Shown here in pieces: positions 2-25,017 of a DNA stretch of 64,000 nt. The position numbers and the translations under genes are program-made. The DNA lies in contig NC_091664.1 in NCBI RefSeq assembly GCF_042453785.1, positions 3,646,501 to 3,710,500 on the forward strand, read 5' to 3'. Within the stretch, counting starts at the first letter, position 1, and every line of letters begins with the position of its first letter. The notes under the pieces are model-generated. The model was given only the letters and a program-made list of their open reading frames with translations, was not told the origin of the DNA and ran no database searches. This DNA is from Malus domestica. Its lineage: Eukaryota; Streptophyta; Magnoliopsida; Rosales; Rosaceae.

Positions 2-1489
2 TTCATGGCGCAAGGCCATATCATACCATTCCTAGCACTTGCAAAGCAAATCCAGGAGTTAACAAACTTCACAATCACCATCGCCACCACCCCTCTCAAC
101 ATCAAATCCCTCCAATCCACCATTTCCACCGCCTCATCCAATCACAACAACATCCACTTGGCCGAACTTCCCTTCTGCAGCTCAGACCACGACCTGCCCC
201 CCAACACAGAAACCACCGAGAACCTCCCCTTCCCCAAAATCATCAACCTTTTCGCCGCTTCAGTCGCCCTTGAACCTCCATCCCGCCGCCTTATCTCCGA
301 TATCATCGAAAAAGAAGGCCGCCCGCCGCTCTGTTTGATCTCCGATGTTTTCTTCGGATGGGCTACTGATCTTGCAAACAGCTTAGGCACTGTCAATGTG
401 AGTTTCACCACAGGCGGGGCTTACGGCTCTGCAGCCTACACATCAATATGGCTCAACCTGCCTCACCGCTCCGCAAGCAACGAATACTTCACCCTCCCCG
501 GCTTCCCGGAACGCTGCAGGTTCCACATCTCTCAGCTGCATCCGTTTCTAAGAGCTGCAGACGGCACAGATTCTTGGTCAAGATTTTTCCAGCCTCAGAT
601 TTCGGGTTCTACAAAATCTTTTGGTTGGCTGTGTAATACTGTGGAGGAAATTGAGCCGTTGGGATTGGATATCTTGAGGGATTACTTGAAGCTTCCTGTT
701 TGGTGCATTGGTCCTCTAATTCCTACTGATGCACTCAAAAACTCATCCACATTGGACTTAAAGGTCTCGAGGCAGCGCGCCGGAAAAGAAATGGGCTTTT
801 CGGCCGAGAAATGCCTCGAGTGGCTTGACTTGCAAGGTCCGAATTCTGTAATTTACATCTCATTTGGTTCTCAGAACACAATCAGTGCAACCCAAATGAA
901 GGAATTGGCTGTTGGGTTGGAAGAAAGCGGAAAACCTTTCGTTTGGGTGATAAGGCCTCCGGTGGGGTTTGATCTGAAGGGAGAGTTCAGAGCAGAGTGG
1001 CTGCCTCATGGATTTGAGGAGAGAATGAGTAAACGAAAACAGGGGTTGCTAGTGCACAACTGGGCACCCCAGTTGGAGATTTTGTCACACAAATCCATAG
1101 GGCTTTTTGTGAGCCATTGTGGGTGGAATTCAGTGATGGAGAGCTTGAGCCAGGGCGTGCCGATTGTTGGGTGGCCGTTGGCGGCGGAGCAGGCCTATAA
1201 TTCGAAGATGTTGGTGGAGGAGATGGGTGTGAGCGTGGAGCTGACAAGGGGTGTGCAGAGTAATATTGGATGGAAAGAGGTGAAGGAGGTGATTGATTTG
1301 GTGATGGATGAGAGTGGGAAGGGAGGGGAGATGAGGAAGAATGCTGGTGAGATTAAGGTGAAGATAAGAAGATCAATTAGAGATGATGATGGTGATCAAG
1401 GAAAGGAGAAGGGGTCATCTGTCAAGGCAATGGAGGATTTCGTCGCTGCTCTTTTATCAAAGAAACAAGATTTGTCAAAAATTAATTAG
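2..1489 (+). CDS. UDP-glycosyltransferase, UGT92-like (copy 1, 5' end cut by window)
   Basis: Family-1 plant glycosyltransferase, which moves a sugar from a UDP-sugar to a small hydrophobic acceptor in the cytosol. The acceptor cannot be told from sequence. The reading frame is open from base 2. The intact copy at 17,020 has 13 further N-terminal residues, so the true start lies just upstream of the window and the ATG at base 5 is internal. Visible features are the catalytic His in the QGHIIPF motif at the very start, the likely partner Asp in LISDVFFGW (about residue 114 of the visible part), and a full 44-residue PSPG donor box (bases 1061-1192). The box starts WAPQLEIL, contains HCGWNS and ends in Gln, as in glucose-preferring enzymes. 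No intron interrupts the visible part. Resemblance to the UGT92A group is my recognition, not a search result. Confidence 0.9.
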   Translation, partial: FMAQGHIIPFLALAKQIQELTNFTITIATTPLNIKSLQSTISTASSNHNNIHLAELPFCSSDHDLPPNTETTENLPFPKIINLFAASVALEPPSRRLISDIIEKEGRPPLCLISDVFFGWATDLANSLGTVNVSFTTGGAYGSAAYTSIWLNLPHRSASNEYFTLPGFPERCRFHISQLHPFLRAADGTDSWSRFFQPQISGSTKSFGWLCNTVEEIEPLGLDILRDYLKLPVWCIGPLIPTDALKNSSTLDLKVSRQRAGKEMGFSAEKCLEWLDLQGPNSVIYISFGSQNTISATQMKELAVGLEESGKPFVWVIRPPVGFDLKGEFRAEWLPHGFEERMSKRKQGLLVHNWAPQLEILSHKSIGLFVSHCGWNSVMESLSQGVPIVGWPLAAEQAYNSKMLVEEMGVSVELTRGVQSNIGWKEVKEVIDLVMDESGKGGEMRKNAGEIKVKIRRSIRDDDGDQGKEKGSSVKAMEDFVAALLSKKQDLSKIN

Positions 1490-1684
1490 TGGTGATTGTG
1501 TTACTAGTAATTTATTAACTAGTTTCTGTATTGAAATTGAAATAATAACATTGTGACTTTCCTATATGGTCAATGTTTGCCACTTTGAAAAGTTATTATG
1601 CTTTTGTTATATCTGGGAAAATATGGACATGAACTATACATAAAATGCCAATGATATTTTTAAAGCTTTAATAGCATCTAGGAC
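1490..1684 (+). other. 3' flank of UGT copy 1
   Basis: AT-rich non-coding stretch. Its first ~80 bases resemble the 3' flanks after the UGT copies ending at 18,543 and 22,115 (taatttattaa... then a gaaat...aataa run), so it is probably 3' UTR inside the ancestral duplication unit. The similarity ends where the LINE fragment begins. Confidence 0.5.
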
Positions 1685-2316
1685 CAACAACAACAACAAC
1701 AAAGTCTTTTCCCACTAAGTGGAGTCGGCTATATGAATCCTAGAACGCCATTGCGCTCGGTTTTGTGTCATGTCCTCCGTTAGATCCAAGTACTCTAAGT
1801 TTTTTCTTAGAGTCTCTTCCAAAGTTTTCCTAGGTCTTCCTCTACCCCTTCGGCCCTGAACCTCTGTCCCGTAGTCACATCTTCGAACCGGAGCGTCAGT
1901 AGGCCTTCTTTGTACATGTCCAAATCACCGGAACCGATTTTCTCTCATCTTTCCTTCAATTTCGGCTACTCATACTTTACCTCGGATACCCTTATTCCCA
2001 ATCTTATCCTTTCTTGTGTGCCCACACATCCCACGAAGCATCCTCATCTCTGCTACACCCATTTTGTGTACGTGTTGATGCTTCACCGCCCAACATTTTG
2101 TGCCATACAACATCGCTGGCCTTATTGCCGTCCTATAAAATTTTCCCTTGAGCTTCAGTGGCCTACGACGATCACACAACACGCCAGATGCACTCTTACA
2201 CTTCATCCATCCAGCTTGTATTCTATGGTTGAGATCTCCATCTAATTCTCCGTTCTCTTGCAAGATAGATCCTAAGTAGCGAAAACGGTCGCTTTTTGTG
2301 ATATTCGCTAGATTGC
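1685..2316 (-). mobile_element. RTE-type LINE 3' fragment (copy A)
   Basis: The minus-strand translation gives the C-terminal part of a non-LTR reverse transcriptase, including [30 protein letters not shown] and [13 protein letters not shown]. On the + strand the element begins with an (AAC)n run at 1686-1703, which is the (TTG)n 3' tail typical of plant RTE LINEs. It is 5'-truncated and interrupted by stops and frame changes, so it is dead. Bases ~1725-2295 are closely related to 5840-6410, in the same orientation. Confidence 0.8.
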
Positions 2317-3866
2317 TCCGGTCATTAGTGTGGATAAGTATATAAATGGATAGAGATAGGAAAGCAAACACAAGATGTACGTGGTTCACCCAGATTGGCT
2401 ACCTCTACGGAATAGAGGAGTTCTCATTAATTGTGAAGGGTTTACACAACTACATAGGTTCAAGCTCTCCTTTAGTGAGTACAAGTGAATGATTTAGTAC
2501 AAATGACATTAGGAAATATTGTGGGAGAATGATCTCGTAATCACGAAACTTCTAAGTATCGGAGTGTGGTATCGTCTTGACTTGCCTTATCTGTCTCATA
2601 GGTAGATGTGGCATCTTCTCTGGAAGTACTCTTCCTCCATCCAGGGGTGGTATCTTTAACTGGTGGAGATGCACAAGGTAATGTATCAATTTCACTTGAA
2701 GCTTACTTGTAGTTTCAGGCTTGGTCAAGTGCGATACAAACCATGTAGTAGGAGTCCCCCAAGTCGCCGAGCTAGGGGATCTGCTGAAAGAGGTGACAGA
2801 CAAGGTAAGTAATCAGAGCTCCGGCTGATTGTTCACATTCTCCCTATCTTGCAGGCAGCATGAAGGATAAAGAGAAGAAAAATGAGAAGAGATGATATGG
2901 GATACTTTTGCTTTTGAGGAAATAACTTTCCACAGGCTTATTCTTGAACTGAGCTGGAGGGTTTTTTGGTTTCCTCCAGAGTATAAGGCCAACTGAAGAA
3001 TTTGAGGGTCAAAACAAGTCCATCAAATCTAGAGTACGTTCGACCCTGCTGATATGGGATACTTTTGCTTTTTGACAAAGTAGTGGATGTATCGGCACGT
3101 GTGCTGTTACGCTTGTCTCCACATGCTTCCTTGTATCCTTCTCACTTGCCCTATATGTTCCTCAGGCAGATGCGGTATTTTCCCTGGAAGCATAAGATGT
3201 TGAAGATGAGTACTCGAGAGCAATGCTAGGTAAGTAATCAGGTAAGGGGTTCCAGGCAGTCAGTTCCTGGCTGGAATCTTGATTCCAAGTGCTGACTGAT
3301 TGCTCTCTTTCTCCTTGTCTTGCATGTAAGAACAAGGCCAAAGGAAAAGACAGGGAAAAAGCATGATATGAGATACTTTTGCTTTTAACCCTGATGATAT
3401 GAAATATTCTTGCTCTAGTATAGCTTGTTTGCAGAGGTATTATCGGGGGGAAAGAAAACTGAAGATTTCGAAAGGCTTCGTTGGGAGTGCCCTCTCAGAT
3501 ATGAGGAAGGGTTGAGCATTTTTGCAGGTCTGCCTGTCCGTTGGGGATGGAGGTCGACATATATAGGAGTCTCCCTAACAACAAGTAGTAATGCTATTCC
3601 TTTACCCTGCTTGGTCATAGCACGGTAGTGGGAGCTGCCAGCTTCACATGTTTTAACTCTGTCAGAGCACTTTGAAAAAGTGGTCTATGGTATCTGGAAA
3701 GCTGATGTTGCGTGTGAAGATTACAAACAAACTTTATCCAAGGAGATCCGGCTCTTGAAGTTGGGAAAACGGTGCCTCTTCGATTTTCGAACAAGCAATC
3801 CTATCGGGGATCTGGCTCTCGAGATTCGGAGAACGATGCCTCTTCGGTTTTTTAGAAAGCAATCTT

Positions 3867-4210
3867 GTTGGGAGTGTTTTCTTGAATGTGAGTAAAGGTT
3901 GGGCATGTTTGCTAGTCTACCTTGCCATGAAGCATAGAGGTTGACACACAGGGACTTTCCAATTATCCAGCAATGGTACTGTTCCTTTACCCTCTCTTCG
4001 ATTTTTGAGAAAGTAGTCATGTTGGGAGTCTGGCTCTCGAGATTCAGAGGACGGTGCTTCTTCGATTTTGGAGCAAGCAATCTTGTTAGGAGTGTTTTCT
4101 CTAATGTGAGTAAAGGTTGGGCATGTTTGCTAGTCTACCTTGCCACGAAGCACAGAGGTTGACACACAGGGACTTTCCAATTATCCAGCAGTGGTACTGT
4201 TCCTTTACCC
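3867..4210 (+). repeat. Direct duplication of ~125 bp
   Basis: Bases 3867-3992 and 4087-4210 are near-identical (shared core ttgggcatgtttgctagtct and gacacacagggactttccaa). Both are preceded by related blocks with a TCTTCGATTTT motif. This looks like an internal duplication within the surrounding element. Confidence 0.75.
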
Positions 4211-4532
4211 TTGTGGGTAATAATATGGTAGCTAGACCTTCAAAATTTATGTGTCTAAACTTTGTTAGTGCTGTTTCTTTGCTATTCTTTTACCCTTCTT
4301 GGTCAGAGCGATGTAGTGGGAGCTGCAAGCTTCACGTGTCTCAACTTTGGCAGAGAACTTTGACAAAGTTATCTGTGGTACCCATGAGCTACTGTTGCGT
4401 GTGGGAAGTGGATGATTGAACAGTAAGATTCATGTGCTTTCTACTTCACCAGAAGTCTTCGACAGAATGCCCATAATTTCCGCAAAGCTGAGTGTGCGTG
4501 TGACAGGTGCTAACAAGGTTGGAAAAGTAGGT

Positions 4533-4770
4533 GCCTCTTCGATTTCTGAGATCGGCCTCGTGGTCTCTGAGCAGCTCAGCTTTTGAGAAAGCAAGCGCCT
4601 CTTCGATTTCTGAGATCGGCCTTCATGGTCTTTGAGCAGCCCAGCTTTTGAGAAAGCAAACGCCTCTTCGATTTCTGAGATCGACCCTCGTGGTCTCTGA
4701 ACAGCCCAGCTTTTGAGAAAGCAAACGCCTCTTCGATTTCTGAGCAGGCGCCTCTTCGATTTCTGAAGCT
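4533..4770 (+). repeat. Tandem repeat, 64-65 bp unit, 3.5 copies
   Basis: Units begin with gcctcttcgatttctgag at 4533, 4597, 4662 and 4727, with a shortened unit at 4749. Spacings are 64, 65, 65 and 22 bp. The array lies ~140 bp upstream of the coiled-coil ORF. Confidence 0.85.
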
Positions 4771-4905
4771 CCGTCGAGTGCAGATTTTTATAGGGGTTGG
4801 CATTAAGTTCCAAAGCACACTTAAATCTCCACCAGTAGAAGCTCCATTCTTGCACTTCTAAGATCTTGATTTGTCCGACCTCTTCTCTCTTCAACACCTT
4901 TGAAA

Positions 4906-5580
4906 ATGTCTGGCCCCTCCGACCGTCGTTTTGACTTGAACCTTGTTGAAAAGGCAGCACCGCCTTCTCCAGACAACATATGGTGCCCATCCTTCGTCTC
5001 CCCTACTAGTCCTCTTACCGTTGGGGATTCCGTCATGAAGAATGATATGACCGCTGCGGTGGTGGCCAGGAACCTTCTCACTCCCAAAGATAACAGACTA
5101 CTTTCCAAACGGTCTGATGAATTAGCTGTTAAGGATTCTCTGGCTCTCAGTGTTCAGTGTGCAGTTTCTGTGTCTAATATGGCCCAACACCTATTTGCTC
5201 GAACCCGCCAAGTTGAATCATTGGCGGCTGAAGTGATGAGTCTCAAATAGGAGATTAGAGGGCTCAAGCATGAGAATAAACAGTTGCACCGGCTCGCACA
5301 TGACTATGCTTCAAACATGAAGAGGAAGCTTGACCAGATGAAGGAATCTGATGGTCAGGTTTTACTTGATCATCAGAGATTTGTGGGTTTGTTCCAAAGA
5401 CATTTATTGCCTTCGTCTTCTGGGGCTGTACCGCGTAATGAAGCTCCAAATGATCAACCTCTGATGCCTCCTCCTTCTAGGGTTCTGTCCAGTACTGAGG
5501 CTCTGAATGATCCCCCTCCGGTGCCTTCTCTTTCTGGGGCTCTACCGACTGCTGAGACTTCTCCTAAGCAACCTTTGTGA
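4906..5580 (+). pseudogene. Coiled-coil retroelement-type ORF with one premature stop
   Basis: From the ATG at 4906 the frame runs 114 codons to a TAG at 5248-5250, then continues in the same frame to a TGA at 5578-5580, for 225 codons in all. One nonsense change is the only visible lesion. The N-terminal third is Pro/Ser-rich. The middle (around residues 80-145) looks like a coiled coil with heptad Leu and charged residues. The C-terminal third has a degenerate three-fold repeat of a Pro/Ser motif (LPSSSGA, PPSRVLSS, PSLSGALP). I recognise no enzyme motif. It may be a gag-like or adaptor protein of the surrounding element. No function is claimed. Confidence 0.5.
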
Positions 5581-5837
5581 AGGCTCCCTCTTGTTTGTTT
5601 ATTTTGACTCATGTATATGTACATATTTGTAACTTATCGGGGATATCAATAAATAAGATTTCCTTCATTTCAACGTATTGTGTTAAATACACCAAAGTCT
5701 TCTTCGCTAAGTTCTTTGAATTTTCTTTTGTTGAAGCTTGTATGTTGAAGCTTTATGAGTGGAGCATGTAGGTTGAGGTAGTGTTCCCTTAATTTCCCGA
5801 GTGAGGAAAACTTCTCGGTTGGAGACTTGGAAAATCC

Positions 5838-6530
5838 AAGTCACTGAGTGGGATCGGCTATATGAATCTTAGAACGCCATTGTGCTCGGTCATGTGTCAT
5901 GTCCTTCGTTAGATCCAAGTACTCCAAGTCTTTTCTTAGAGTCTCTTCCAAAGTTTTCCTAGGTCTTCCTCTACCCATTTGGCCCTGAACCTCTGTCCCA
6001 TAGTCAAATCTTCTAATCGGAGCGTCAGTAGGCCTTCTTTGCACATGTCCAAACCACCGTAACCGATTTTCTCTCATCTTTCCTTCAATTTCGGCTACTC
6101 CTACTTTACCCCGGATATCCTCATTCCTAATCTTATCCTTTCTCGTGTGCCCACACATCCAACGAAGCATCCTCATCTCCGCTACACCCATTTTGTGTAT
6201 GTGTTGATGCTTCACCTCCCAACATTTTGTGCCATACAGCATCGCCGGCCTTATTGCCGTCCTATAAAATTTTCCCTTGAGCTTCAGTGGCATACGGCGG
6301 TCACACAACACGCCGGATGCACTCTTCCACTTCATCCATCCAGCTTGTATTCTATGGTTGAGATCTCCATCTAATTCTCCGTTCTTTTGCAAGATAGATT
6401 CTAGGTAACGAAAACGGTCGCTCTTTGGTATTTCTTGATCTCCGATCCTCACCCCTAACTCGTTTTGGCCTCCATTTGCACTGAACTTGCACTCCATATA
6501 TTCTGTCTTTGATTTAGGGTTCTGTCCCAT
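5838..6530 (-). mobile_element. RTE-type LINE 3' fragment (copy B), 229-codon open frame
   Basis: The minus strand keeps an open frame of 229 codons covering the C-terminal end of a non-LTR reverse transcriptase ORF. Motifs include [40 protein letters not shown] and RLRWFGHVQRRP, with the final RAQWRSKIHIADP near the 3' end. The catalytic YxDD part is absent because the copy is 5'-truncated. An A-rich run follows on the + strand at 6531-6560. It lacks the (TTG)n tail that copy A has, so its 3' end is also clipped. Confidence 0.85.
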
Positions 6531-7003
6531 ACAAAAAAAAATAAAAAAATAAAAAATAAAAAGCGCTAACCGAAGACTTTGCTAAAAAACGAAGGATTCA
6601 TGCGGGTGACACCACTTAATAAGATAAGGTTTTGTTGTTTGTTAATAACATCTTCTTTTTCTTTATGAGTGATAATAGAGAGATTAACTTTTTAGATTAT
6701 CTTTTGTAAAAAATATGATGTGGCGATTAATAGTTGAACTCTTTCTTGTTTATCAATAAATTTTCCTGAAAGTCACTTTCTATGATAACAATGCTGGAAT
6801 GGGATGGACTTTGTGGCCAAATTGAAAAGAAATTTTTTTTACAAAAAGAGTTCAACCATCTGTCATATTATGAAATCTACAAAAAAATAATCGAAAACAT
6901 TTAATCTTTTTAACATTTTCCTTTTGTTATTAGTGTAACATCTCAAGTTTGATGATTCTCTAAAAATACGTGTGAGCTACATGTCTAAATTTGTGAAAAT
7001 TGA
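6531..7003. other. AT-rich spacer, no gene seen
   Basis: No coding signal. The last ~25 bases (ctacatgtctaaatttgtg and what follows) match the UGT 3' flank at 23,010-23,045, so this end belongs to the ancestral UGT duplication unit. Confidence 0.5.
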
Positions 7004-7696
7004 TTGGAATAGTTTTCCCTCTCTAGTGAGAGTCTTTCTCGGTTTTAGGGATTTTTTCTCATCCCTTTGTGTGAGGCCTCTAAATTGAGCAAAACTGGTG
7101 GCGAGGATCCTAACTTTGGCCGAGGTCGGTTGCCGTCCTCCCCTTTCTTTCCTTCTTGTATTTTTTCCTTGCTTTTACTATTTTTTCACCTTGGTTGTTA
7201 TACTTATATGTCCTGCTTCTCTTTTCCAGACAGTATCTATCCTTTGTGTTCATCCATATTCCGATTTTCAGTCATACAACCTACTGAGATTGTGTGTAGA
7301 GCTCTAGTTATTTCACTGGCTCGAGTGTTTCGAACACGTTCGTGGATCTCCACGGACTTATCTTGATAGTTGGCTTCTCTCGTTTGGTTGATGGCTATCC
7401 TTACTTTATGACTGTGCTTCGGAAACAGATTGGAGTTGGATGTGACATTTGGTGAGGTGTTGCTTGGCTGTGGAAGAGGAATTGGACAGATTGGGATGAT
7501 CTTTGGCTGCGGAGGAAACGGTAGAAATTTCTAGGCTCGGTGTTCGTGTTTTGCTTTTTCGGCCTAATTGTATCTTACCTCTTGTAGTGTGTTGTTCTGT
7601 TTTGGCCCCCTTTATTTATGTTAATATGTTAGCTTTGGGCTTTGTCTGTCTGTAAAAAAAATTTATTTTGTAATAAAAAGTACTTAAAAAAAAAAC
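7004..7696 (+). mobile_element. Poly(A)-tailed retroposon with 13-bp target duplication
   Basis: A 693-bp insertion ends in an A-rich tail (aaaaaaaatttattttgtaa ... aaaaaaaaaa). It is flanked by the direct repeat TTGTGAAAATTGA at 6991-7003 and 7697-7709. The flanks match uninterrupted sequence after the other UGT copies (19,274 and 23,033), which marks the empty site. The interior has no long frame and no motif I recognise. It could be a heavily truncated L1 LINE or a retroposed transcript. Confidence 0.7.
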
Positions 7697-9500: not shown

Positions 9501-10037
9501 GGGCATTGTGAAGGCATTTCCTCCACGGATCGCGATCCAGAGTTGGCATTGTGAAGGCATTTCTATTAAGGACAATTCTCTTGTAAAAGATAAAACTTAG
9601 TCTTGATTAATTCTGTTGTAATCTGTTGATAGTGGTGTGATTAGTTAGGCTTAGTTTTTTATGTAGTTAGGATGAGTTGGCAGCACAAGTGTGTGCGCGC
9701 TATGCCATTGTATAAATACCAAGTGTAAGCTTATTATTTGATATATATGAAAAGATATTTTCTCAATAATTTCCTTCACGTCGGTCCTTCTTAACCCAAT
9801 TTTTGTTTTAATTCCCATCGACGATTTGTTAAAATCCTCAATGTTTTCATTACCGTCTACTTCAGTAGTTAGAAAAACTGAAATTTTGATATTACCTTTG
9901 AAACTATATTTTCCTCTACTAAAACTCATCTTTTTTTGTTTTCTTGAATAAAACCCATTGACTAGCCTCCAACTAAACAAATTCTTTAATTAAGTTTGAC
10001 TTTTTAAATTGTGTATTTTCCGAATGCCTAAACTATC

Positions 10038-11745
10038 TGTCACAGCTCGTCCCGAGATTTTCTTATTAAGGACATGAAATGTCGGATTTGACCTTAGCGC
10101 GGGCTAAGGTAAGTGTGTGTGACATTATTTGGATTATTTCTATATAAGTTTTGGATTTAAATTTTAGTTTTATAAAATTTTGGTTAGGGAATTAGATGAT
10201 GGAGGGTGAGGATTTAATGTTGGACCATCTAAACCCCTGCACTCTCTCTCTTCTCGTAGCACTCTCTCTCTCTCCTCCCTCACGGCTTCCTCTCTCTCTC
10301 TCTCACTCCCGAAGTGTACGGACGAGACCCAAAACCATCCAAAACTCAGTGGATCGAAGCAACCAAGGTAAGATTCTTCATCCTTGTGATGCTCTGAGTT
10401 GTTTGATGCTAGTTTTAGGACGTGGAACCTTCGATATCACGTGAACCCGAACCCCTCATTTTTTGTCACTGTTCATGCACACGTGAAATGTTGTGTTTCA
10501 GGGAATTCTAAGCTTATAGTGAGCTTAGTGATGTCCCAAGGAAGCTCGGAGTGCTTCGTTTGAAGGTTTTGGACGTCGGGATCACTAGGTTCGATTTTGG
10601 CCGGTTTTTCTTGGAATTTTCCGGTGAGATTTAGTTGTTTTTGGAGCTTAAAAGTAGTGTATCGTGATTTTACATGTTTGGGGCTTCATTTTGATATAAA
10701 ATACGAAGAAAATGGGTGAGAAACGAAGGAGAACAAGGAGTTTCAAAGTTGGCCGGAAATCGGCCGCCGGAAAGTTCAGTCCGGCGAGCCAAGGTTAGGG
10801 ATGATGCGCGTGGGGGCGCGTGTCCCCGTGCCTGTCCCGGAGCGTGCGGCCTCCAAAAATTTATCTAAAAATTTCTCGACGTCCGTGACGTCGAGTAGGT
10901 CGATGTGGTATATTCATATACCCAAATTGAGCATCGTATGAGAAGTTATTTCGAATTGTTGGTTATGTGTTTAAATTAACGTTTTTATAGTTGTTTCGCA
11001 TATAGGTGACACCTATCCCGAGGACGAGCGCATCCAGGGACGTCACGGGGGTTACGACCCATCGACTTACCAGTGAGTGGGCAGTTTTGTTTTCGTATTA
11101 CCTATATAGTACTGTTTTTCCCAGGAAATGCGTTTATTTGAAAATTATGATTTAAATTGCCATGCATGCAATTGTTGAGATATTTGGTTTGATAAGTGAT
11201 GCGTTTATATGTGAATTGACGCGGTGGACGCACATGTGAGTTTTTATATTATTTAGATGAGTTATTTTATGTGAATTGCATTGAAAGCTCATAACCTGCA
11301 CCCTAGGTGTTAGTGCTTATATTATTATTCACCACACAACACGCTCGTCTTGGATCCAAGTAGGTGGATGTCGTACAGACCATGTGAGGGTTCCGACATG
11401 CTAGTCGTATAGACCACTAGATCTGATTCCGACTAGTGGGTGACCTTAGTTATGTTCGCCGATGATTGATGAGAGAAGCACTAGAGCGTATTTATACACC
11501 TTTCATCGTACAGACTACCATATGTAGTTCCGAGTGACGTGCAGAGTTGGGCCGTATAGGTCACTGTGGTGACTCCGGCTGAGTGAGATGTTGAGCTTTA
11601 GAATCAGCCTTACAGGACCACTGTAGGGTCTCCGGTTGATTTATTATTTCACCTGATTGATATTGATGCATTCTGATTATATTTTGGCATGGCATGACAT
11701 ATCCTTTCTGAGATGTTATGTTGATGGATGTGAGCTGAGTTTTGA

Positions 11746-11789
<44 letters not shown>

Positions 11790-12214
11790 TATTTTCTAGG
11801 AAAGTATACAGGTTTTACGGTGAGGGGTTAGAAATGTTTTAAATGAAATGTTTTGGAAAATCTTTGGTTTTACTGACCCACTCATCTTTGTTTTGCGCTC
11901 CTCTAGGTTCTAGTTAGCAGTTGGTGGCTCTCGAGGTCTTTTTCGGCATTCTGACATACGCTCTACATGTAGGACTCACCTGCGGGTGTTGTACTTTTTA
12001 TTATGGTCCTACTTGACTGCACTTAGACCTATGCTCTGAATTTATGTGTTTTACCTTATAACTCATCCTTTTATTCTAGTAGGTTGTTACTACTAGAGAT
12101 TGGTTTAAATTCCTTATTATTTCTGTTATTGATTTGCTTCCGTGTCGCACTTTTGGTTACGTCACACTCACGTGACGGCCAGCACGCCTTGATCCTCTGG
12201 ATCGGGGTGTGTCA
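10038..12214 (+). repeat. Left LTR, 2177 bp
   Basis: Starts TGTCACAGCTCG and ends GGGGTGTGTCA, the TG...CA form of an LTR, immediately before a primer binding site. It contains a CT-rich run (10,240-10,310) and a long (TA)n run near 11,748-11,781. Short ORFs inside it, such as one near 10,196, look accidental. Confidence 0.85.
11748..11781. repeat. (TA)n microsatellite in left LTR
   Basis: About 17 TA units. The matching place in the inverted right LTR (about 14,070-14,091) has fewer units, which shows slippage after the arms were formed. Confidence 0.8.
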
Positions 12215-12217
12215 GTT

Positions 12218-12229
12218 TGGTATCAGAGC
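12218..12229 (+). other. Primer binding site, initiator-Met tRNA type
   Basis: TGGTATCAGAGC is complementary to the 3' end of plant initiator methionine tRNA and lies 3 bases after the LTR end, as expected for minus-strand priming of an LTR retrotransposon. Confidence 0.85.
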
Positions 12230-12293
12230 CTAGGTTGCAGTCCTGTATAATTGTTAATGCTTTAATGATCTTTTGATGTTTTCTGTCAGAATT

Positions 12294-13654
12294 ATGCCGC
12301 CTCATAGAGAGCGTAGGGAGTCCCGCCGTACTCCTGAACCTAATTTCCCGGATATCACTCAGTTGGGGGAAACAATGGCTCAGGCTTTTCAGAATGTAAT
12401 TCGTCCTCCTCCCCCTCCTCAGAGGACACCCTTGGAGACCATGTACAATCTGAAATTAGATCGTTTTATGGGTGATGAGGGTCACGAGGAGGCAGAGAAA
12501 TGGCTAGATCATATTGAAAAGACGTTTCAGGTGATGCAAAGTCAGGGGAACTTTCCGGCTGATAGGTGGGTTGAGACCACTACCTGGTTTTTGGGTCGAG
12601 AGCTGGCAGGTTGGTGGAGGAATCAGACGCATTTTATGTCCCCAGCTATGGCATCTGATTGGGAGGTATTTGAAGATAATTTCAAGAAAAGATTTGTCCC
12701 TCCAGAGTATATTGATCGTAAGAAACAGGAATTTACTCGGTTGAAACAGAGGAATATGACAGCTCATGAGTACTATAGAAAGTTTACTGATTTGTCTCGC
12801 TATGACCCTGATACAGCTGGTAATCAGGGAGAGATGCTTCGACGTTTCAAGTTAGGAACTAAGAGAAAGTGGCGGACTTTTGCCAGTGCACTTCCCTGCG
12901 CCGATTACCATGAGTTTTTCGAGATTTTGGTTAGGATGGAGGACTCTGATAACCTTCCCAGTGATAGTGAGGATGACGAGGACAAGAATGATGGTCAGAA
13001 GAAGGATGATAAAGGTAAGGTTATCTCTATTCCGGAACCTCGCAAGACGCAGAATTTTAAGAAGAGTGGAGCGAGTTCGAGTTCTTCTAGTGGTGGATAT
13101 AGTATTACTGGCCTGATGAGAGGTGGTGGAAGATTTTCTGGTGGGCCCAGATTTCAAAGGCAGAGGGATTCTGGTGGGGCTGTTGGTTCTGGCGCTCCGT
13201 GGTGCCGCCGTTGTAATTTTTGTCATCATGGTGAGTGCAGAAGAGGTGGTGGTGCTTGTTTTACTTGTGGGCAAATGAGACATCGGGCTTCTCAGTGTCC
13301 CCAGGGTCAGCAGAGACCACAGCAGACCACTATGCCACCTCCAGCGCCGATTCAGCAGAGCTTTGGACCAGGCAGTTATGGCCAGTCGGGTCATGGTGGT
13401 GCCTACCATTACCAGGGGGATGCTGCTCCGTATGCTCCCAGAGACCTTATTAGTATCCCCAGGAGCCTTATCCTCAGACGGGGTATTCCCAGGACTTTGG
13501 GGGTTATTCTTCTTATTCATCCATGCCAGCTGGTGGATCTCAGTGGCATCAGGGAGGTCAGCCTTGTCAGGGGGAAGTTGCTGTTGGTGGTGCAGGATCA
13601 TCTAGGTCGTCCAATCAGCCAGGCCAGGGACGTACTTCTCATAGGCGAGGTAAT
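12294..13654 (+). pseudogene. Truncated, frameshifted Ty3/gypsy-type gag
   Basis: Starting at the ATG in ATTATGCCGCCTC, the frame encodes a retrotransposon gag domain (about residues 45-200, with GWWRNQTHF, WEVFEDNFKKRF and DRKKQEFTRLKQ), an acidic stretch DSEDDEDKNDG and a CX2CX4HX4C zinc knuckle (CFTCGQMRHRASQC). An upstream in-frame ATG at 12,276 is also possible. Near 13,445 the Gln/Gly/Tyr-rich C-terminal tail moves into another frame, consistent with loss of one base, and that frame also has a nearby stop. The ORF is then cut at 13,654 by the inverted LTR. Protease, reverse transcriptase and integrase are absent. Confidence 0.85.
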
Positions 13655-15807
13655 CAAGGCGTGCTAGCCGTCACGTGAGCGTGACGTAACCAAAAGTGCG
13701 ACACGGAAGCAAATCAATAACAGAAATAAGAAGGAATTTAAACCAATCTCTAGTAGTAACAACCTACTAGAATAAAAGGATGAGTTATAAGGTAAAACAC
13801 ATAAATTCAGAGCATAGGTCTAAGTGCAGTCAAGTAGGACCATAATAAAAAGTACAACACCCGCAGGTGAGTCCTACATGTAGAGCGTATGTCAGAATGC
13901 CGAAAAAGACCTCGAGAGCCACCAACTGCTAACTAGAACCTGGAGGGGTGCAAAACAAAGATGAGTGGGTCAGTAAAACCAAAGATTTTCCAAAACATTT
14001 CATTTAAGACATTTCTAACCCCTCACCGTAAAACCTGTATACTTTCCCAGAAAATAGTATATAGACATATATATATATATATCATCAAAACTCAGCTCAC
14101 ATCCATCAACATAACATCTCAGAAAGGATATGCCATGCCATGCCAAAATATAATCAGAATGCATCAATATCAATCAGGTGAAATAATAAATCAACCGGAG
14201 ACCCTACAGTGGTCCTGTACGGCTGATTCTAAAGCTCAACATCCCACTTAGCTGGAGTCACCACAGTGACCTATACGGCCCAACTTTGCACGTCACTCGG
14301 AACTACATATGGTAGTCTGTACGATGAAAGGTGTATAAATACGCTCTAGTGCTTCTCTCATCAATCATCGGCGCGCATAACTAAGGTCACTCACTAGTCG
14401 GAATCACATCTAGTGGTCTATACGACTAGCATGTCGGAACCCTCACATGGTCTGTACGACATCCACCTACTAGATCCAAGACGAGCGTGCGGTGTGGTGA
14501 ATAATAATATAAGCACTAACACCTAGGGTGCAGGTTATGAGCTTTCAATGCAATTCACATAAAATAATCCATCTAAATAATATAAAAACTCACCTGTGCG
14601 TCCACCGCGTCAATTCACATATAAACGCATCACTTATCAAACCAAATATCTCAACAATTGCATGCATGGCAATTTAAATCATAATTTGCAAATAAACGCA
14701 TTTCCTAGGAAAAATAGTAGTATATAGGTAATACGAAAACAAAACTGCCCACTCACTGGTAAGTCGATGGGTCGTAACCCCCGTGACGTCCCTGGATGTG
14801 CTCGTCCTCGGGATAGGTGTCACCTATATGCGAAACAACTATAAAAATGTTAATTTAAACACATAACCAACAATTCGAAATAACTTCTCATACGATGCTC
14901 AATTTAGGTATATGAATATACCACATCGACCTACTCGACGTCATGGACGTCGAGAAATTGTTAGATAAATTTTTGGAGGCCGCACGCGCCCCCACGTGTT
15001 AGGATAGGCACGGGGACACGCGCCCCCACGCGCATCATCCCTAACCTTGGCTCGCCGGACTGAACTTTCCGGCGGCTGGTTTCCGGCCAACTTTGAAACT
15101 CCTTGTTCTCCTTCGTTTCTCACCCATTTTCTTCGTATTTTATATCAAAATGAAGCCCCAAACATGTAGAATCACGATACACTACTTTTAAGCTCCAAAA
15201 ACAACTAAATCTCACCGGAAAATTCCAAGCAAAACCGGCCAAAATCGAACCTAGTGATCCCGACGTCCAAAACCTTCAAACGAAGCACTCCGAGCTTCCT
15301 TGGGACCTCACTAAGCTCACTATAAGCTTAGAATTCCCTGAAACACAACATTTCACGTGTGCATGAACAGTGACAAAAAATGAAGGGTTCGGGTTCACGT
15401 GATATCGAAGGTTCCACGTCCTAAAACTAGCATAAAACAACTCAGAGCATCACAAGGATGAAGAATCTTACCTTGGTTGCTTCGACCCATTGAGTTTTGG
15501 ATGGTTTTGGGTCTTGTCCGTACACTTTGGGAGTGAGAGAGAGAGAGAGAGAGAGGAAGCCGTGAGGGAGGAGAGAGAGAGAGTGCTACGGGAAGAGAGA
15601 GAGGGCAGGGGTTTAGATGGTCCAACATCAAATCCTCACCCTCCATCATCTAATTCCCTAACCAAAATTTTATAAAACTAAAATTTAAATCCAAAACTTA
15701 TATAGAAATAATCCAAATAATGTCACACACACTTACCTTAGCCCATGCTAAGGTCAAATCCGACATTTCACGTCCTTAATAAGAAAATCTCGGGACTGGC
15801 TGTGACA
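13655..15807 (-). repeat. Right LTR, inverted, 2153 bp
   Basis: Reverse complement of the left LTR, closely similar along its length. It lacks the last ~23 bases of the LTR (the U5 end), so the inner edge is the break-and-join point with gag. The outer edge is a complete U3 end (…CTGTGACA on the + strand). Confidence 0.85.
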
Positions 15808-15920
15808 CTATCCCTATTAATACTTGGATGGGGTTTTTGGACCAGTTACTTGTTATATCCATTTAATTAATTTTATATATTTTACAAAATAATTTATGCC
15901 ATTCATTGTATATTCAATGT

Positions 15921-15962
15921 TAGCCGACCCCACTTAGTGGGAAAAGGCTTTGTTGTTGTTGT
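15921..15962 (+). mobile_element. 42-bp RTE LINE insertion with 16-bp target duplication
   Basis: The insert reads tagccgaccccacttagtgg then gaaaaggctt and (TTG)n. This is the extreme 3' end of the RTE family seen at 1685-2316. It is flanked by the perfect direct repeat ATTGTATATTCAATGT (15,905-15,920 and 15,963-15,978). Confidence 0.85.
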
Positions 15963-16865
15963 ATTGTATATTCAATGTATTAACTTTCAAATTGTTATAA
16001 CGTGCCAATTGAATAATAATAATACTAATTTCATAATTTTGTGCAATAAATATATAAGTTAATTTACCTACCAACACAACAATAAATCTAAAACAGCTTC
16101 GGCTAATACTCCAATCTCTAATACACAAAACAAAAGCTATATGTTCCACACAATTTTTACTTACAAAATAGTCTAATTTACCTACTCCATCAAACCAAAA
16201 TTTAAAGGTCTAATTTACTTCCAAAATGGTCTAATTTACCCACATGATTTATGTGCATTAGATTAAAAGTTTATTTAATTGCCTACAAGCACAAACCCAC
16301 AACATTCGAACATTATCTAATCACTAATTTTTTATTTTTTTTGAATAGGTAAATTAATTTCAATGTAGGTAAATTAGTATAATATTAATAAGTAGGTAAG
16401 TTAATTTAAATGTAGGTAAATTAGTATAATATTTTATAAGTAGGTAAATTAGTATAATATTTGTATGTAGGTAATTACATGATTCAAAATGCAGGTAAAT
16501 TAGTATAATATTTTTTAAGTAGGTAAATTAATTTGTTTGTAGGTAATTACATGATTCAAACAATATTATTTTTTGCATACAAGATATGTCTTTTTTTTTT
16601 TTAATTCGGTAAATTAATTTATTTATGTTGCTAATATTTATGACACAAGAAAGGTAAAATATCCATATGGATTTAATTGCTCATCATAATTAGGGTGAGT
16701 AATAACATTTATTGACCAAATTAGGATTTTGTGGCATAAGTTGCAAATGAATTGTAATAGTTAGTTATATATTTGTCTACATGGTAGGTTATTTGAAATT
16801 TAGGTTTTATTTGAATGTTTAAATTTAGTTGGGTTTTTATTTGAAAAATAGAAGTTTCAAGGGTC

Positions 16866-17019
16866 TATATCTAAAAAAATCTTTAGAAAAAATAAAGAAA
16901 TATCAGTGTTTCTCAACTGCCAGTGTCTACTTAAGACGGAAAATAATTGTTCTTCTTCTTCCTACTCCTCACCATTACAGATCATTGATAAAATCATCAA
17001 AAAAAAAAAAAAAGAAAGG
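16866..17019 (+). promoter_or_regulatory. Proximal 5' flank of UGT copy 2
   Basis: About 150 bp between the TIR element and the ATG. The part from ggaaaataattgttcttctt onward resembles the 5' flank of UGT copy 3 (20,538-20,600), so this is the only promoter-proximal sequence shared by the copies. A poly(A) stretch precedes the start codon. No TATA box could be assigned with confidence. Confidence 0.4.
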
Positions 17020-18543
17020 ATGGGATTTGAGAAAGAGCATATAGTAATGCTGCCATTCATGGCTCAAGGCCATATCATACCATTCCTATCACTTGCAAAG
17101 CAAATCCAGCAGTCAACAAACTTCTCAATCACCATCGCCACCACCCCTCTCAACATCAAATCCCTCCAATCCACCATTTCCTCCGCCTCATCCAATCACA
17201 ACAACATCCACTTGGCCGAACTTCCCTTCTGCAGCTCAGACCACGACCTCCCCCCTAACACAGAGACCACAGAGAACCTCCCCCTCTCCAAAATGATCAA
17301 CTTTTTAGTCGCCTCACTCAGCCTCGAACCTCCTGCTCGACGCCTTATCACTGATATCATCAAAAGGGAAGGCCGCCCGCCGCTCTGTTTGATCTCGGAC
17401 GTATTCTTCGGATGGGCTACCGATCTTGCAAACAGCTTAGGCACTGTCAATGTGAGTTTCACCACAGGCGGGGCTTACGGCACTGCAGCCTACACATCAA
17501 TCTGGCTCAACCTCCCTCATCGCTCCGCAAGCAGCGAATACTTCACCGTCCCCGGCTTCCCGGAACACGGCAGGTTCCACATCTCTCAGCTGAATCCGTT
17601 TGTAAGAGCTGCAGACGGTACAGAATCTTGGTCAAAATTTTTCCAGCCCCAGATTTCGGGTTCTACAAAATCATTTGGTTGGCTGTGTAATACTGTGGAG
17701 GAAATTGAGCCGTTGGGATTGGATATCTTGAGGGATAACTTGAAGCTTCCGGTTTGGTGCATTGGTCCTCTAGTACCTAATGATGCACTCAAAAACTCAT
17801 CCGCATTGGACTTAAAGGTCTCGAGGCAGCGCACCGGAAAAGAAATGGGCTTTTCCGCAGAGAAATGCCTCGAGTGGCTTGACTCGCAAGGTTCGAATTC
17901 TGTAATTTACATCTCATTTGGTTCTCAGAACACAATCAGTGCAACCCAAATGATGGAATTGGCTGTTGGGTTGGAAGAAAGCGGAAAACCTTTCGTTTGG
18001 GTGATAAGGCCTCCGGTGGGGTTTGATCTGAAGGGAGAGTTCAAAGCAGAGTGGCTGCCTAACGGGTTTGAGGAAAGAATGAGTAAACGAAAACAGGGGT
18101 TGCTAGTGCACAACTGGGCACCCCAGTTGGAGATTTTATCACACAAATCCACTGGCTTTTTTGTGAGCCATTGCGGGTGGAATTCAGTGATGGAGAGCTT
18201 GAGCCAGGGCGTGCCGATTGTTGGGTGGCCGTTGGCGGGGGAGCAGGCTTATAATTCGAAGATGTTGGTGGAGGAGATGGGTGTGAGTGTGGAGCTGACA
18301 AGGGGTGTGCAGAGTAATATTGGATGGAAGGAGGTGAAGGAGGTGATTGATCTGGTGATGGACGAGAGTGGGAACGGAGGGGAGATGAGGAAAAATGCAG
18401 GTGAGATTAAGAAGAAGATAAGAGGATCAATTAGAGATAATGATGGTGATCAAGGAAAGGAGAAGGGGTCTTCTGTTAAGTCAATGGAGGATTTTGTGGC
18501 TGCTCTTTTATCAAAGAAACAAGATTTGGCAAAAATCAATTAG
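17020..18543 (+). CDS. UDP-glycosyltransferase, UGT92-like (copy 2, intact)
   Basis: Intronless 507-residue family-1 glycosyltransferase. I chose the ATG at 17,020 (MGFEKEHIVMLPF...). The frame stays open further upstream but through poly(Lys) and UTR-like sequence with no earlier ATG. Catalytic His lies in QGHIIPF (residue 18), and the likely partner Asp in LISDVFFGW. The PSPG box spans residues 366-409 (bases 18,115-18,246), starts WAPQLEIL, contains HCGWNS and ends GEQ, where copy 1 has AEQ. The length is normal for the family. It is the only complete member of the cluster in the window. Its distal promoter is transposon-derived. The acceptor is unknown. Confidence 0.93.
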   Translation: MGFEKEHIVMLPFMAQGHIIPFLSLAKQIQQSTNFSITIATTPLNIKSLQSTISSASSNHNNIHLAELPFCSSDHDLPPNTETTENLPLSKMINFLVASLSLEPPARRLITDIIKREGRPPLCLISDVFFGWATDLANSLGTVNVSFTTGGAYGTAAYTSIWLNLPHRSASSEYFTVPGFPEHGRFHISQLNPFVRAADGTESWSKFFQPQISGSTKSFGWLCNTVEEIEPLGLDILRDNLKLPVWCIGPLVPNDALKNSSALDLKVSRQRTGKEMGFSAEKCLEWLDSQGSNSVIYISFGSQNTISATQMMELAVGLEESGKPFVWVIRPPVGFDLKGEFKAEWLPNGFEERMSKRKQGLLVHNWAPQLEILSHKSTGFFVSHCGWNSVMESLSQGVPIVGWPLAGEQAYNSKMLVEEMGVSVELTRGVQSNIGWKEVKEVIDLVMDESGNGGEMRKNAGEIKKKIRGSIRDNDGDQGKEKGSSVKSMEDFVAALLSKKQDLAKIN

Positions 18544-19320
18544 AGATGTAATTTATTAATTAATTAGTTTTTGCGTTGAAATTTAAAGAATAATATTGTC
18601 GCTTTCAAGTCAATTGAGAGCTGATGATACTTGAGTATTGACTAGTGAGTACTTATTTCTAATTTTGTTGAATGATATTATAATACATATGCTATTTAAA
18701 AAAAAATGAAATAATGGATATGTCATTTGATCTTTCTTAGACTATAAAAACAAATAATACGTTTTTTTATTGGGCTAAAGCGGAAATGGCCTTAAAATTT
18801 ATAAGGGACCGTTGTACTACCAGTCAATTGAATGAGCTTAAAGCTCCATATTCTTGGTGGCAAGTGCTGCTCAATGGTTCTCTCCCAAAGCGAAAATGCT
18901 TGAAAATGTTCTCGAAAGCCAAGGGAGTAGGAGCTTACCTCGTTTGATTATGCACTGGTGGAACCTATACTTTACAATAGGAAGGTGGATTGAATGCTCC
19001 TGGAAAGATAAGAATCGATGCAACTGAGTAGCTAAATCTAGTAAAACGCTCCAACTCAAACGAGAGGGATACATAAAATATACACTAGTAAGTACCGAAG
19101 TATTATCCTTTAAGAAATTTATATGTTTGCGAAGCGATAGGTTTTGTTTCAAAATATGTTAGGCTGTGGGGATGACATCCAAAGTCCAAAAAAGCCTGCA
19201 CCTGGCTAAGAGGGTAGGGTTGAAACTTGGAACAAATGCCCTCATTACGCTTTCATGTGCATGCTGCATGTCAACTTGTGAAAATTGAAGCTATATGAAT
19301 TAAAGTGGAAATTTATTCAA
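18544..19320. repeat. Duplicated spacer block A, copy 1 (3' flank of UGT copy 2)
   Basis: Aligns with 22,116-23,085 over nearly its whole length, for example ataagggaccgttgtactac, cattgaatg-type blocks and aggctgtggggatg. No gene seen. It lacks the small TIR element present in the other copy at 22,400. Confidence 0.75.
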
Positions 19321-19439
19321 CCTATTAGAATAACCTTAGGTGCTCTTCATATCATCCTCTTGATTAGCCACTCCATCACTGCCACAGTATCCTATTAGAA
19401 TAGTGTATTCCAGCTAATTGCCCCCTTTTTTTTCCACCA

Positions 19440-20375: not shown

Positions 20376-20607
20376 GAGTTGGCACCGACGATTTGTTAAA
20401 ATCCTCAAATTTGTCACTACTCTCTACTTAGTAGTATGAAAAATTAAAGAAATGACAATTTTTTTCAAATGCCAATGTAATTGATAAAAAAGTTGAAGTA
20501 CCCAGTAGTCCGGACTATCAAAGACTATCAAAGACTGGAAAATAATTATTCTTCTTCTCCCTCTTTCTCACCATTATAGGTCATTCAAAAAATTATCAGA
20601 AAAAAAA

Positions 20608-22115
20608 GGGGGATTTGAGAAAGAGCATATAGTAATGCTGCCATTTATGGCTCAAGGCCATATCATACCATTCCTATCACTTGCAAAGCACATCCAACAG
20701 TCAACAAACTTCTCAATCACCATCGCCACCACCCCTCTCAACATCAAATCCCTCCAATCCACCATTTCCTTTCCTCATCCAATCACAACATCCACTTGGC
20801 CGAACTTCCGTTCTGCAGCTCAGACCACGACCTCCCCCCTAACACAGAAACCACAGAGAACCTCCCCCTCTCCAAAATGATCAACCCTCCTTTAGCCGCC
20901 TCACTCAGCCTCGAACCTCCTGCTCGCCGCCTTATCACCAATATCATCAAAAGGGAAGGCCGCTCGCTGCCCGCCGCTCTGTTTGATCTCTGACGTGTTC
21001 TTCGGATGGGCTACCGATCTTGCGAATAGCTTAGGCACTGTCAATGTGAGTTTCAACACAAGTGACGGCTTTGCAGCCTACACATCAGTCTGGCTCAACC
21101 TGCCTCACCGCTCCGCAAGCAACGAATACTTCACCGTCCCCGGCTTCCCGGAACACTGCAGGTTCCACATCTCTCAGCTGAGTTCGTTTGTAAGAGCTGC
21201 AGACGGTACAGACTCTTGGTCAAGATTTTTCCAGTCCCAGATTTCGCTTTCTACAAAATCTTTTGGTTGCCTGTGTAATACCGTGGAGGAAATTTAGCCG
21301 TTGGGATTGGATATCTTGAGGGATAACTTGAAGGTTCAAGTTGGTGCGTTGGTCCTCTAATTCCTACTGATGCACTAAAAAACTCATCCATATTGGACTT
21401 AAAGGTCTCGAGGCAGCGCGCGGGGAAAGCCTTTTCCGCAAAGAAATGCCTCGACTGGCTTGACTCGCAAGGTTCGTGTTCTGTCATTTATATCTCATTT
21501 GGTTCTCAGAACACTATCAAGGCAACCCAAATGATGGAATTGGCTGTTGGGTTGGAAGAAAGCGGGAAGCCTTTCGTTTGGGTGATAAGGCCTCCGGTGG
21601 GGTTTGATCTAAAGGGTGAGTTCAGAGCAGAGTGGCTGCCGCACGGGTTTGAGGAAAGAATGAGTAAACGAAAACAGGGGTTGCTAGTGCACAACTGGGC
21701 ACCCCAGTTGGAGATTTTGTCACACAAATCCACAGGGGTTTTTGTGAGCCATTGCGGGTGGAATTCAGTGATGGAGAGCTTGAGCCAGGGCGTGCCGATT
21801 GTGGGGTGGCCGTTGGCGGCGGAGCAGGCTTATAATTCGAAGATGTTGGTGGAGGAGATGGGTGTGAGTGTGGAGCTGACAAGGGGTGTGCAGAGTAATA
21901 TTGGATGGAAGGAGGTGATTGATCTGGTGATGGACGAGAGTGGGAAGGGAGGGGAGATGAGGAAAAATGCAGGTGAGATTAAGAAGAAGATAAGAGGATC
22001 AATTAGAGATAATGATGGTGATCAAGGAAAGGAGAAGGGGTCTTCTGTTAAAGCAATGGAGGATTTTGTGGCTGCTCTTTTATCAAAGAAACAAGATTTG
22101 GTAAAAATCAATTAG
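20608..22115 (+). pseudogene. UDP-glycosyltransferase, UGT92-like (copy 3, broken)
   Basis: Compared with copy 2, the normal start codon is lost (ggggg in place of the ATG context near 20,610). The next ATG in frame is at 20,635. Further lesions are a net 4-bp deletion near 20,768-20,790, a 7-bp insertion near 20,965, an in-frame TAG at 21,295-21,297 and a 1-bp deletion near 21,335. Two in-frame deletions (6 bp near 21,430 and 9 bp near 21,915) are also seen. The C-terminal half from about 21,393 is uninterrupted and keeps a perfect PSPG box starting at 21,696. The frame damage in the acceptor-binding half rules out a normal enzyme. A transcript could still exist. Confidence 0.92.
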
Positions 22116-22265
22116 AGATGTAATTTATTAATTAATTAGTTTTGTGTTGAAATTTAAAGAATAATATTGTCACTTTCAAGTCATTTGAGAGCTGATAAAC
22201 TTGAGTATTCACTAGTGTGTACTTATTTATGATTTTGTCAAATGATATTATAACACATATGCTAT

Positions 22266-22296
<31 letters not shown>

Positions 22297-23085
22297 TAAT
22301 AATAATGGATATGTTATTTGATCCTTCTTAGACTATAAAAACAAATAATACGTGATAATTTTTTTATTGGGCCAAAGCAGAAAAGGCTTTGGGTTTTAAG
22401 GAAAACTAACCAAAAGTTCTCAAAAACTTTTGTTTTAATGAAAATGACAAAATAAATGTGTAAGTGAATAGTTCTAGGAATGACTTTTCAAGGTAAAAAT
22501 GTCCTTAATGTTAAAAGCGAACAGTATCAATAGTGTTTCATTAAGATTCCTTAGATTTTATAAGGGACCGTTGTACTACCAGTCAATTGAATGTGCTTAA
22601 AGCTCCATATTCTCGGTGGCAAGTGCTGCTAAGTGGTTCTGTTCGAATGTGAAAATGCTTGAAAATGCTCTCGAAGGTCGGGAGTAGGAGCTTACCTCGT
22701 TTGATTATGCACTGGTGGAACCTATGCTTTACAATAGGAAGGTGGATCAAATGCTCCTAGAATGATAAGAATCGATGCAATTGAGTAGTTAAGTCTAGTA
22801 AAACGCTCCAACTCAAGGTAGAGGGATACATAAAATATACACTAGTGAGTACCGAAGTATTATCCTAAAAAATTCATATGTTTGCAAAGGGATAGGTTTT
22901 TTTTTTCAAAAGATGTTAGGCTGTGGGGATGGCATCCAAAGTCCAAAAAAGCCTGCACATGGCTTAAGAGGGTAGGGTTGAAACTTGAACAAAGGCCCTC
23001 ATTATGCTTTCTATGTATGCTACATGTCTAAACTTGTGAAAATTGAATCTATATGAATTAAAGTGAAACTTTATTCAACCTACAA
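22116..23085. repeat. Duplicated spacer block A, copy 2 (3' flank of UGT copy 3)
   Basis: Aligns with 18,544-19,320, interrupted by a (TA)n run near 22,278 and by the small TIR element at 22,400-22,550. No gene seen. Confidence 0.75.
22400..22550. mobile_element. Small TIR element (MITE), family of 59,043-59,290
   Basis: Begins ggaaaactaacc and ends ttcattaagattcc, the inverted counterpart. It is a diverged inverted-orientation relative of the element at 59,043 (shared aaaatgacaaaataaa-type and gtgaatagt blocks). It is absent at the equivalent place after UGT copy 2 (about 18,790). Confidence 0.65.
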
Positions 23086-23699: not shown

Positions 23700-25017
23700 G
23701 GGTTAATTACACTAACATCCCTTAAGGTTTTTTGGGTTTTCACAAAACCCTCTCACGTTTAAAATATTACACTAACACCCTTTCAGGTTTTAATTCTCTT
23801 TCACATAGCCAATTCACTCAAAATTCTACTAACAAATTGACAACTTTACCCTTATAATTAATTACGTAAACAATAAAAAAATGTCTTTATAATTATATAT
23901 AGAAAGAAAATATTAAAAATAAATAAAACATTAAAATAGAAAAACCACCACTCCAAAAACTCCCATGAAATCTCCTGCATTTGACTCCATTGCAAGTCTG
24001 CAACCCTAGCCACCATCGGACCCTCCTTTGTGTGTTTTCCCAAAACCACCACACAAACTACCACTTCAACTTCAACAACAAATTCAGACTCTAAAAAATG
24101 AAGAGCAACCATCCCTCACTGATGAAACTGATATAACGGGACAAGAAGACGTCGACAATCCAGCAAATAAAGCTGATCTTGCGTCGTAGGTCAAATTAGA
24201 TTTGTGGTCAGCCACTCTGCATCGCTTAGCCGTTGCAAGATCGATTCATTTCAGACCATCACTTTCGCGTTGTGGATTTTGATTTGCTGCAGTCAAATCT
24301 AGTACCCTAACATCTCTGAATTTGGCGTTATCTCCATTTACACCTCATCTCTCCCTCTCCCTATCTCTCTCACGATGAATCTGTTTGAAATTTTTGTTGG
24401 ATTCTTTTGGAACGTTGTTTAAGCGTTTACGTTGATGATTTCATATGACGCAAAGTGTGCAGTGGGTATAACATAAGGTAGAACTAAACGTAGATGTAAA
24501 ACGTTTAGAAACTAAACTGTGCAAAAATTTAGGGTTCAAAGAGAATTCAGTATTTTGTGCAAGATAATTGGGTCACAGCCACCACTTTGTGATGAAGAAC
24601 TTCAACAATAGTAATCTGTTTGATCTTCACCCCGTTATCAGGCATTACATATTTTTAGTGACAATTTTTAATGTTTAAATTATTTTTTAATATTTTCATT
24701 TTCTATATATAATTGTAAGGATTTCTTTATCGTTGATTGAGTAATTAGTTATAAGGGTAAACTTATCAATTTATTAGAAGAATTTTGACTGAAGGGATCA
24801 TGTGAAGGTGAAATAAAATATGAAGGGGTGTTAGTGTAATGTCTCAAATGTGAAGGGGTTTTGTGAAAACTCGATAAACCTCAGGGGATGTTAGTGTAAT
24901 TGTCACATGCCGGCTCGGGCTCCTACCACATCTCAGGCTCAACTTCACCGTAGCACGATATTGTCCGCTTTGGGCCCCGACCACGCCCTCACGGTTTTGT
25001 TTCTGGGAACTGACACG

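Follow-up and report, generated by a model that had tools for sequence, protein, structure and literature searches.

A 64,000-nucleotide stretch of Malus domestica DNA (contig NC_091664.1, positions 3,646,501 to 3,710,500; hereafter the window) contains at 10038-15807 an integrated retroelement whose two long terminal repeats (LTRs) stand in opposite orientation, with an exact U3 end at each outer boundary (Table 1). The unit is best explained as an aberrant reverse-transcription product of a Ty3/gypsy-type element that was inserted by its own integrase, an origin that we consider probable. Within this explanation, the concerted integration of two U3 ends is very likely, while a strand switch onto strong-stop DNA is favoured by a smaller margin of confidence. 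The two flanks join with a single copy of the target site duplication (TSD), both outer termini are exact U3 ends, the inner joint falls on a match of 8-9 nt, and the two arms are sister sequences.

The unit consists of an LTR, a primer binding site (PBS), a partial gag and an inverted LTR that has no PBS, and pol is missing. This inverted arrangement, with PBS and gag in between, had been described in an original prediction made from the letters alone, and its coordinates are exact. The prediction also took the right LTR to be the reverse complement of the left one, which holds for its orientation and for its U3 end, but the copy is incomplete, lacking both the end of U5 and the PBS. The Ty3/gypsy-type features of the unit are the PBS adjoining the LTR, the TG..CA ends, the 5-bp TSD and the gag protein (PF03732, E 2e-11). 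The PBS, which we take to be of the initiator tRNA-Met type, is found at the same place after the LTR in the copies L014, L021 and L026 and, with one change, in L028. The LTRs of the unit are in opposite orientation, whereas four other near pairs in the genome are all direct; in four ordinary direct pairs the LTR starts lie 7.1-7.2 kb apart. Genome searches covered 651 Mb in 19 contigs. A gag pattern had 5 matches in viral contigs and 22 in prokaryote contigs, none of which was confirmed as a relative. The gag frame (12273-13667) seems to be shifted in its last part, as judged by comparing reading frames with a second fold-back element of the family, L081, whose frame near 13646 differs from the open reading frame starting at 12273.

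Table 1. Features of the LTR unit, its target site and two related loci. Positions are those of the window, except where a contig is named.
Feature	Position	Strand	Remarks
Left TSD	10033-10037		CTATC, directly outside the left U3 end
Complete LTR	10038-12214	+	2177 bp; U3 end outward (left); termini TGTCACAG...GTGTGTCA
PBS	12218-12229	+	motif TGGTATCAGAGC just after the left LTR
Partial gag (Retrotrans_gag)	12294-13660	+	relatives continue as ordinary gag past 13660
Internal joint	13653-13660		8-nt match ATCAAGGC, common to gag and the reversed U5 end
Inverted LTR	13653-15807	-	2155 bp, 21 nt short at its U5 end; U3 end outward (right), terminus CTGTGACA
Right TSD	15808-15812		CTATC, directly outside the right U3 end
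Host transposon-like unit	9878-16882		interrupted by the LTR unit; ~1.2 kb once the insert is removed; 9-bp TSD TTAGAAAAA at 9869-9877 and 16883-16891
Empty site of the host unit	20383-20648	+	intergenic spacer in a tandem pair of UDP-glycosyltransferase genes; can be aligned with the two flanks of the host unit
Fold-back element L081 (L046 extended)	1320-7163 (contig C17)		TSD CACAC directly outside both ends
Scrambled piece L080 (L037 extended)	3751-4277 (contig C1)		527 bp: U5, gag, reversed PBS and U5, U5; U5 ends outward on both sides

A genome search with 13450-13760 gave 41 matches, with 40 of 1497 candidates scored and 20 loci fetched, one of which is the unit itself. All 19 other gag relatives match the unit through 13660 (13659 in L032) and then continue as ordinary gag, while the LTR parent matches from 13653 onward, which places the joint in an 8-nt overlap. 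Most rows of the gag parents have ..GGTAATCAAGGC/A.., and the LTR parent has ..ATCAAGGCGTGC.., which is preceded by an A in 15 of the 17 relatives with a shown LTR end; these 15 read AATCAAGGC, which extends the overlap to 9 nt. A pattern over the joint, allowing up to two mismatches, has one match in the genome, the unit itself, and none in the reversed control; at this threshold, the same gag/U5 joint was not found elsewhere in the genome. In extent, the right arm comes close to exactly one plus-strand strong-stop DNA.

The steps that preceded integration, i.e. the switch, the identity of its template and the making of the cDNA, are what we infer from here on. A plus strand carrying U3-R-U5-PBS-gag would have left its minus-strand template within gag and annealed, via the short match, to another plus-sense U3-R-U5 strand at the U5 end of the latter; this second strand would most likely be a spare plus-strand strong-stop DNA. 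By copying this second strand to its 5' end, the plus strand would have gained a second exact U3 terminus, since plus-strand priming sets the 5' end of such a template at the U3 terminus. With a template of about the length of one strong-stop DNA, a joint as close to the LTR end as 21 nt is to be expected. The resulting linear fold-back cDNA would carry U3 at both ends, and integrase would pair both and insert them concertedly. According to an excerpt of PMC5371799, the polypurine tract (PPT) of Ty3 and Ty1 appears to prime more than once, plus-strand products in a proposed scheme stop either at the U5 end or 12 nt into the tRNA, and dead-end strong-stop DNA builds up in Ty3 particles. Likewise, an excerpt of PMC3579926 describes concerted integration by Rous sarcoma virus (RSV) integrase with single-U3-end donors that have one gain-of-function base change there, which makes the U3/U3 integration step plausible.

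The same 8-9 nt match could also have been used by the host. Two partial double-stranded cDNAs of one source may have been end-joined by microhomology repair before integration, with integrase then using both U3 ends, and this course of events likewise predicts identical outer ends and a TSD. We consider it unlikely, though it is the most serious competitor of a strand switch. It needs one break in gag and another no more than 21 nt from the LTR end. Strong-stop DNA would naturally end near the latter position, but a full cDNA, with 7.1-7.2 kb between LTR starts, could have broken anywhere.

Over 2139 aligned sites, the two arms show 57 differences (2.66%, Kimura two-parameter distance 0.0272) and 4 indels, a divergence within the range of 2.0-3.4% observed for six ordinary 5'/3' LTR pairs (one of them compared over 1007 sites only; a seventh pair, L021 with L075, was left out for want of an LTR in L075). 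At an assumed rate of 1.3e-8 per site per year, the arms are presumably ~1 million years old. In a tree of 22 LTR rows, they are sisters at 100/100, with tips of 0.014 and 0.015. With the distant solo LTR of the window as outgroup, 23 differences are derived in the right arm and 19 in the left, the other 15 giving no polarity; in comparison with 20 relatives, 17 are private to the right arm and 15 to the left, 24 occur with both states and 1 with neither. In a larger set of rows, 30 of the 57 arm differences fall on family-variable sites, compared with 139 of 319 in ordinary pairs (Fisher p 0.25). The differences are evenly spread along the LTR (p 0.85), and the longest stretch free of them has no exceptional length (p 0.14). 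Being sisters with the divergence and the share of variable sites of ordinary pairs, the arms behave as two LTRs from one reverse transcription, and they were probably near identical at birth. Separate sources for the two arms were considered and rejected on the same grounds.

Alternatively, integrase might have brought together one U3 end from each of two cDNAs and inserted the two molecules, with the free inner ends being trimmed and joined in place. In vitro, RSV integrase does pair single-U3-end donors, as described in the excerpt of PMC3579926. For the unit in apple this seems improbable, because most of both cDNAs must be lost and one break must lie near the LTR end. The sister relationship of the arms also argues against it, although two cDNAs of one source would give the same result.

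A perfect CTATC duplication had been predicted at the unit and is present directly outside both U3 ends. The probability that 5 bp next to the two exact ends agree by chance is ~0.0013 under the composition of the window and ~0.0022 under that of the flanks. For a survey of TSDs in the family, 20 LTR copies were fetched and 19 classed after the incomplete L011 had been dropped; 12 of the 13 solo LTRs among them have an exact 5-bp TSD, and the remaining one shows a single mismatch. The target itself lies in a transposon-like host unit. When searched against the genome, the left flank had 41 matches, with 40 of 248 candidates scored and 20 loci fetched, one being the window itself. In all 19 other fetched copies of the host transposon the target is uninterrupted, reading ..CCTAAACTACC/CCTATTAATACTTGG.. 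with small differences, and these copies align across the flank join, which contains one TSD copy, by 54 to 1066 bases. A single clean insertion is thus well supported. Together with the 9-bp TSDs of the host unit and its empty spacer, the joining of the flanks in the host copies indicates that the left and right flanks are the original neighbours. The related copy at 58 kb in the window, which had been proposed as the empty site, says little by itself: the single-TSD join lifts its alignment score only from 98 to 105, and an equally good result is reached by 1.5% of 20000 48-mers drawn at random from the window; the empty target as such is borne out by the 19 other copies.

The 9-mer TTAGAAAAA occurs three times in the window, two of these occurrences being the TSDs of the host unit. 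The inverted ends of the host unit are weakly alike, their score being reached by 1 of 500 dinucleotide shuffles for the 10-kb copy and by 0 of 500 for the 58-kb copy. Over longer end stretches of the 10-kb copy, plain shuffles score up to 78, compared with 71 observed. By its 9-bp TSD, the host unit might be labelled Mutator-like.

Exact U3 termini, a TSD of the size typical for the family, a lossless flank join in 19/19 host copies and sister arms support the earlier proposal that the unit is the primary integration product of an aberrant cDNA, inserted via a U3/U3 pair. The proposal also spoke against a later rearrangement, and it is very improbable that an ordinary insertion was rearranged afterwards or that two insertions occurred independently and lost the DNA between them. 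Fold-back repeats are able to rearrange, but the flanks still abut precisely at the target with a single 5-bp copy, both lie in a single host unit whose 9-bp TSDs match, and no simple inversion would set a U3 end exactly at the right TSD. An assembly artefact or a fold-back read is just as improbable, since the arms differ at 57 sites and by 4 indels and the TSD is exact; the unit is also found in the whole genome, but this is the same assembly and hence not independent.

The loci L001-L079, mostly pieces of 3-4 kb in which only nearby inversions are visible, were scanned for gag and LTR matches in both orientations. The scan flagged L018, L029, L037, L046 and L079, with L029 and L079 corresponding to the unit itself. 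L046, extended as L081, is a further fold-back element, but its ends are an ordinary pair, with U5 on the left and U3 on the right, while the interior holds an inverted pol-gag-PBS-U5 stretch. Two internal switches would account for these ordinary ends. Between the arms of L081 there are 35 differences in 1340 sites; the gag joint falls on an 8-nt near-match (7/8 against relatives), and the gag leads into a protease domain (PF08284).

L080, the extension of L037, is located in a satellite of ~347 bp, and the surrounding monomers show that ~40 bp of the target were lost and ~8 bp of filler were added. Inspected by eye, the gag joint of L080 coincides with the final bases of the 12-nt PBS, the point at which strong-stop DNA would end. 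Its outward U5 ends and the match of its flanks at 4/5 bases were considered as a possible U5/U5 integration, but the target loss and the filler speak against this. Integrase is therefore unsupported at this locus, and the piece was probably captured by repair. L018 contains a solo LTR at 101-2275 and, ~1.8 kb away, part of a second LTR in opposite orientation (4085-4381).

With up to one mismatch, the genome contains 1271 U3 starts (621 forward and 650 reverse), which probably include relatives of the family. Neighbour pairs were counted for the first 100 of these, on contigs C1-C3, and all 21 pairs within 15 kb are direct. The search for other inverted-LTR units, also suggested in the original prediction, yielded L081 with its ordinary ends among the scanned loci and no second U3/U3 unit among the 100 listed matches.

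Several observations weigh against a strand switch onto strong-stop DNA as the origin of the unit. An 8-nt word common to gag and the last 60 nt of U5 arises in 38 of 60 shuffles, and the argument therefore rests on the joint falling on the match and not on the match itself. The strong-stop template is deduced solely from the position of the joint, and the other joint of L081 shares ~2 nt by eye. In the arms, 8 neighbouring pairs of differences are at most 2 nt apart (p 0.007), and this close spacing hints that some differences may have existed at birth. Of the 57 differences, the 24 that show both states among the 20 relatives point in the same direction, although ordinary pairs are much alike in this respect. 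Finally, the U3/U3 unit is a single example, and the absence of opposite-strand U3 neighbours within 15 kb among the 100 matches listed suggests that such units are rare.

Aberrant products of reverse transcription are known from other LTR retrotransposons. Sabot and Schulman (2007; PMC1950507) described template-switching complexes with a TSD, highly alike outer LTRs and a third, internal LTR, but no inverted pair. Like the unit in apple, these complexes are aberrant reverse-transcription products; their outer LTRs are equally old, the TSD measures 5 bp, and they are read as one integration. They contain three LTRs, drawn as two elements sharing one, and an ordinary end pair, whereas the unit has two opposite LTRs with U3/U3 ends, an internal switch at a short match and no third LTR. 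Retroviral autointegration also produces inverted cDNA rearrangements, but according to an excerpt of PMC2644782 its reactive CA ends attack inner sites, leading to deletion or inversion circles. In contrast, the unit is linear and integrated, and its inner joint lacks 21 nt of U5 and lies on an 8-nt match, not at an exact processed LTR end.

Inverted terminal repeats are likewise found in DIRS-type elements, which carry them in every copy, use a tyrosine recombinase and generate no TSD. The ordinary copies of the apple family, however, have direct LTRs, and the family generates a 5-bp TSD. The unit can also be compared with L081, a fold-back element of the same family with a 5-bp TSD and one joint on an 8-nt near-match, from which the unit differs by the two switches and the ordinary U3/U5 end pair of L081. 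A U3/U3 insertion with inverted LTRs was not found in the literature by title or the start of the abstract, a search that left most subscription journals out of reach and does not show absence in print.

Pairing of two U3 ends is known mainly from purified integrases, and the unit represents a natural in vivo record in which two such ends were paired and inserted with the normal 5-bp stagger. This insertion suggests that integrase does not need one end of each kind. The unit also preserves a base-by-base record of the site at which a plant reverse transcriptase switched templates. As a tentative generalisation, the reverse transcriptase of the family might repeatedly make fold-back cDNAs by switching from gag to plus-sense strands at short matches, including strong-stop DNA, while its integrase might be blind to the type of end in living plants, in which case U3/U3 insertions would be a small but regular output. 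Fold-back units are expected to be missed by LTR finders that search for direct repeats, and their frequency can be counted.

The window contains further repeats. A solo LTR at 52586-54916 on the minus strand is a distant relative of the family and has the 5-bp TSD AAGCT on both sides. A short element at 24901-25611, which we take to resemble a TRIM, has a terminal repeat on either side of a reversed PBS (25298) and is flanked by the TSD GTAAT; a single repeat related to it is located at 56652-56941. By eye, this element seems to contain a 5S-like stretch, for which Rfam gave no match, and an Rfam scan of the window had no match at the gathering score. Tandem repeats with UDP-glycosyltransferase genes (PF00201) are present at 2-1561, 16933-19324 and 20531-23082.

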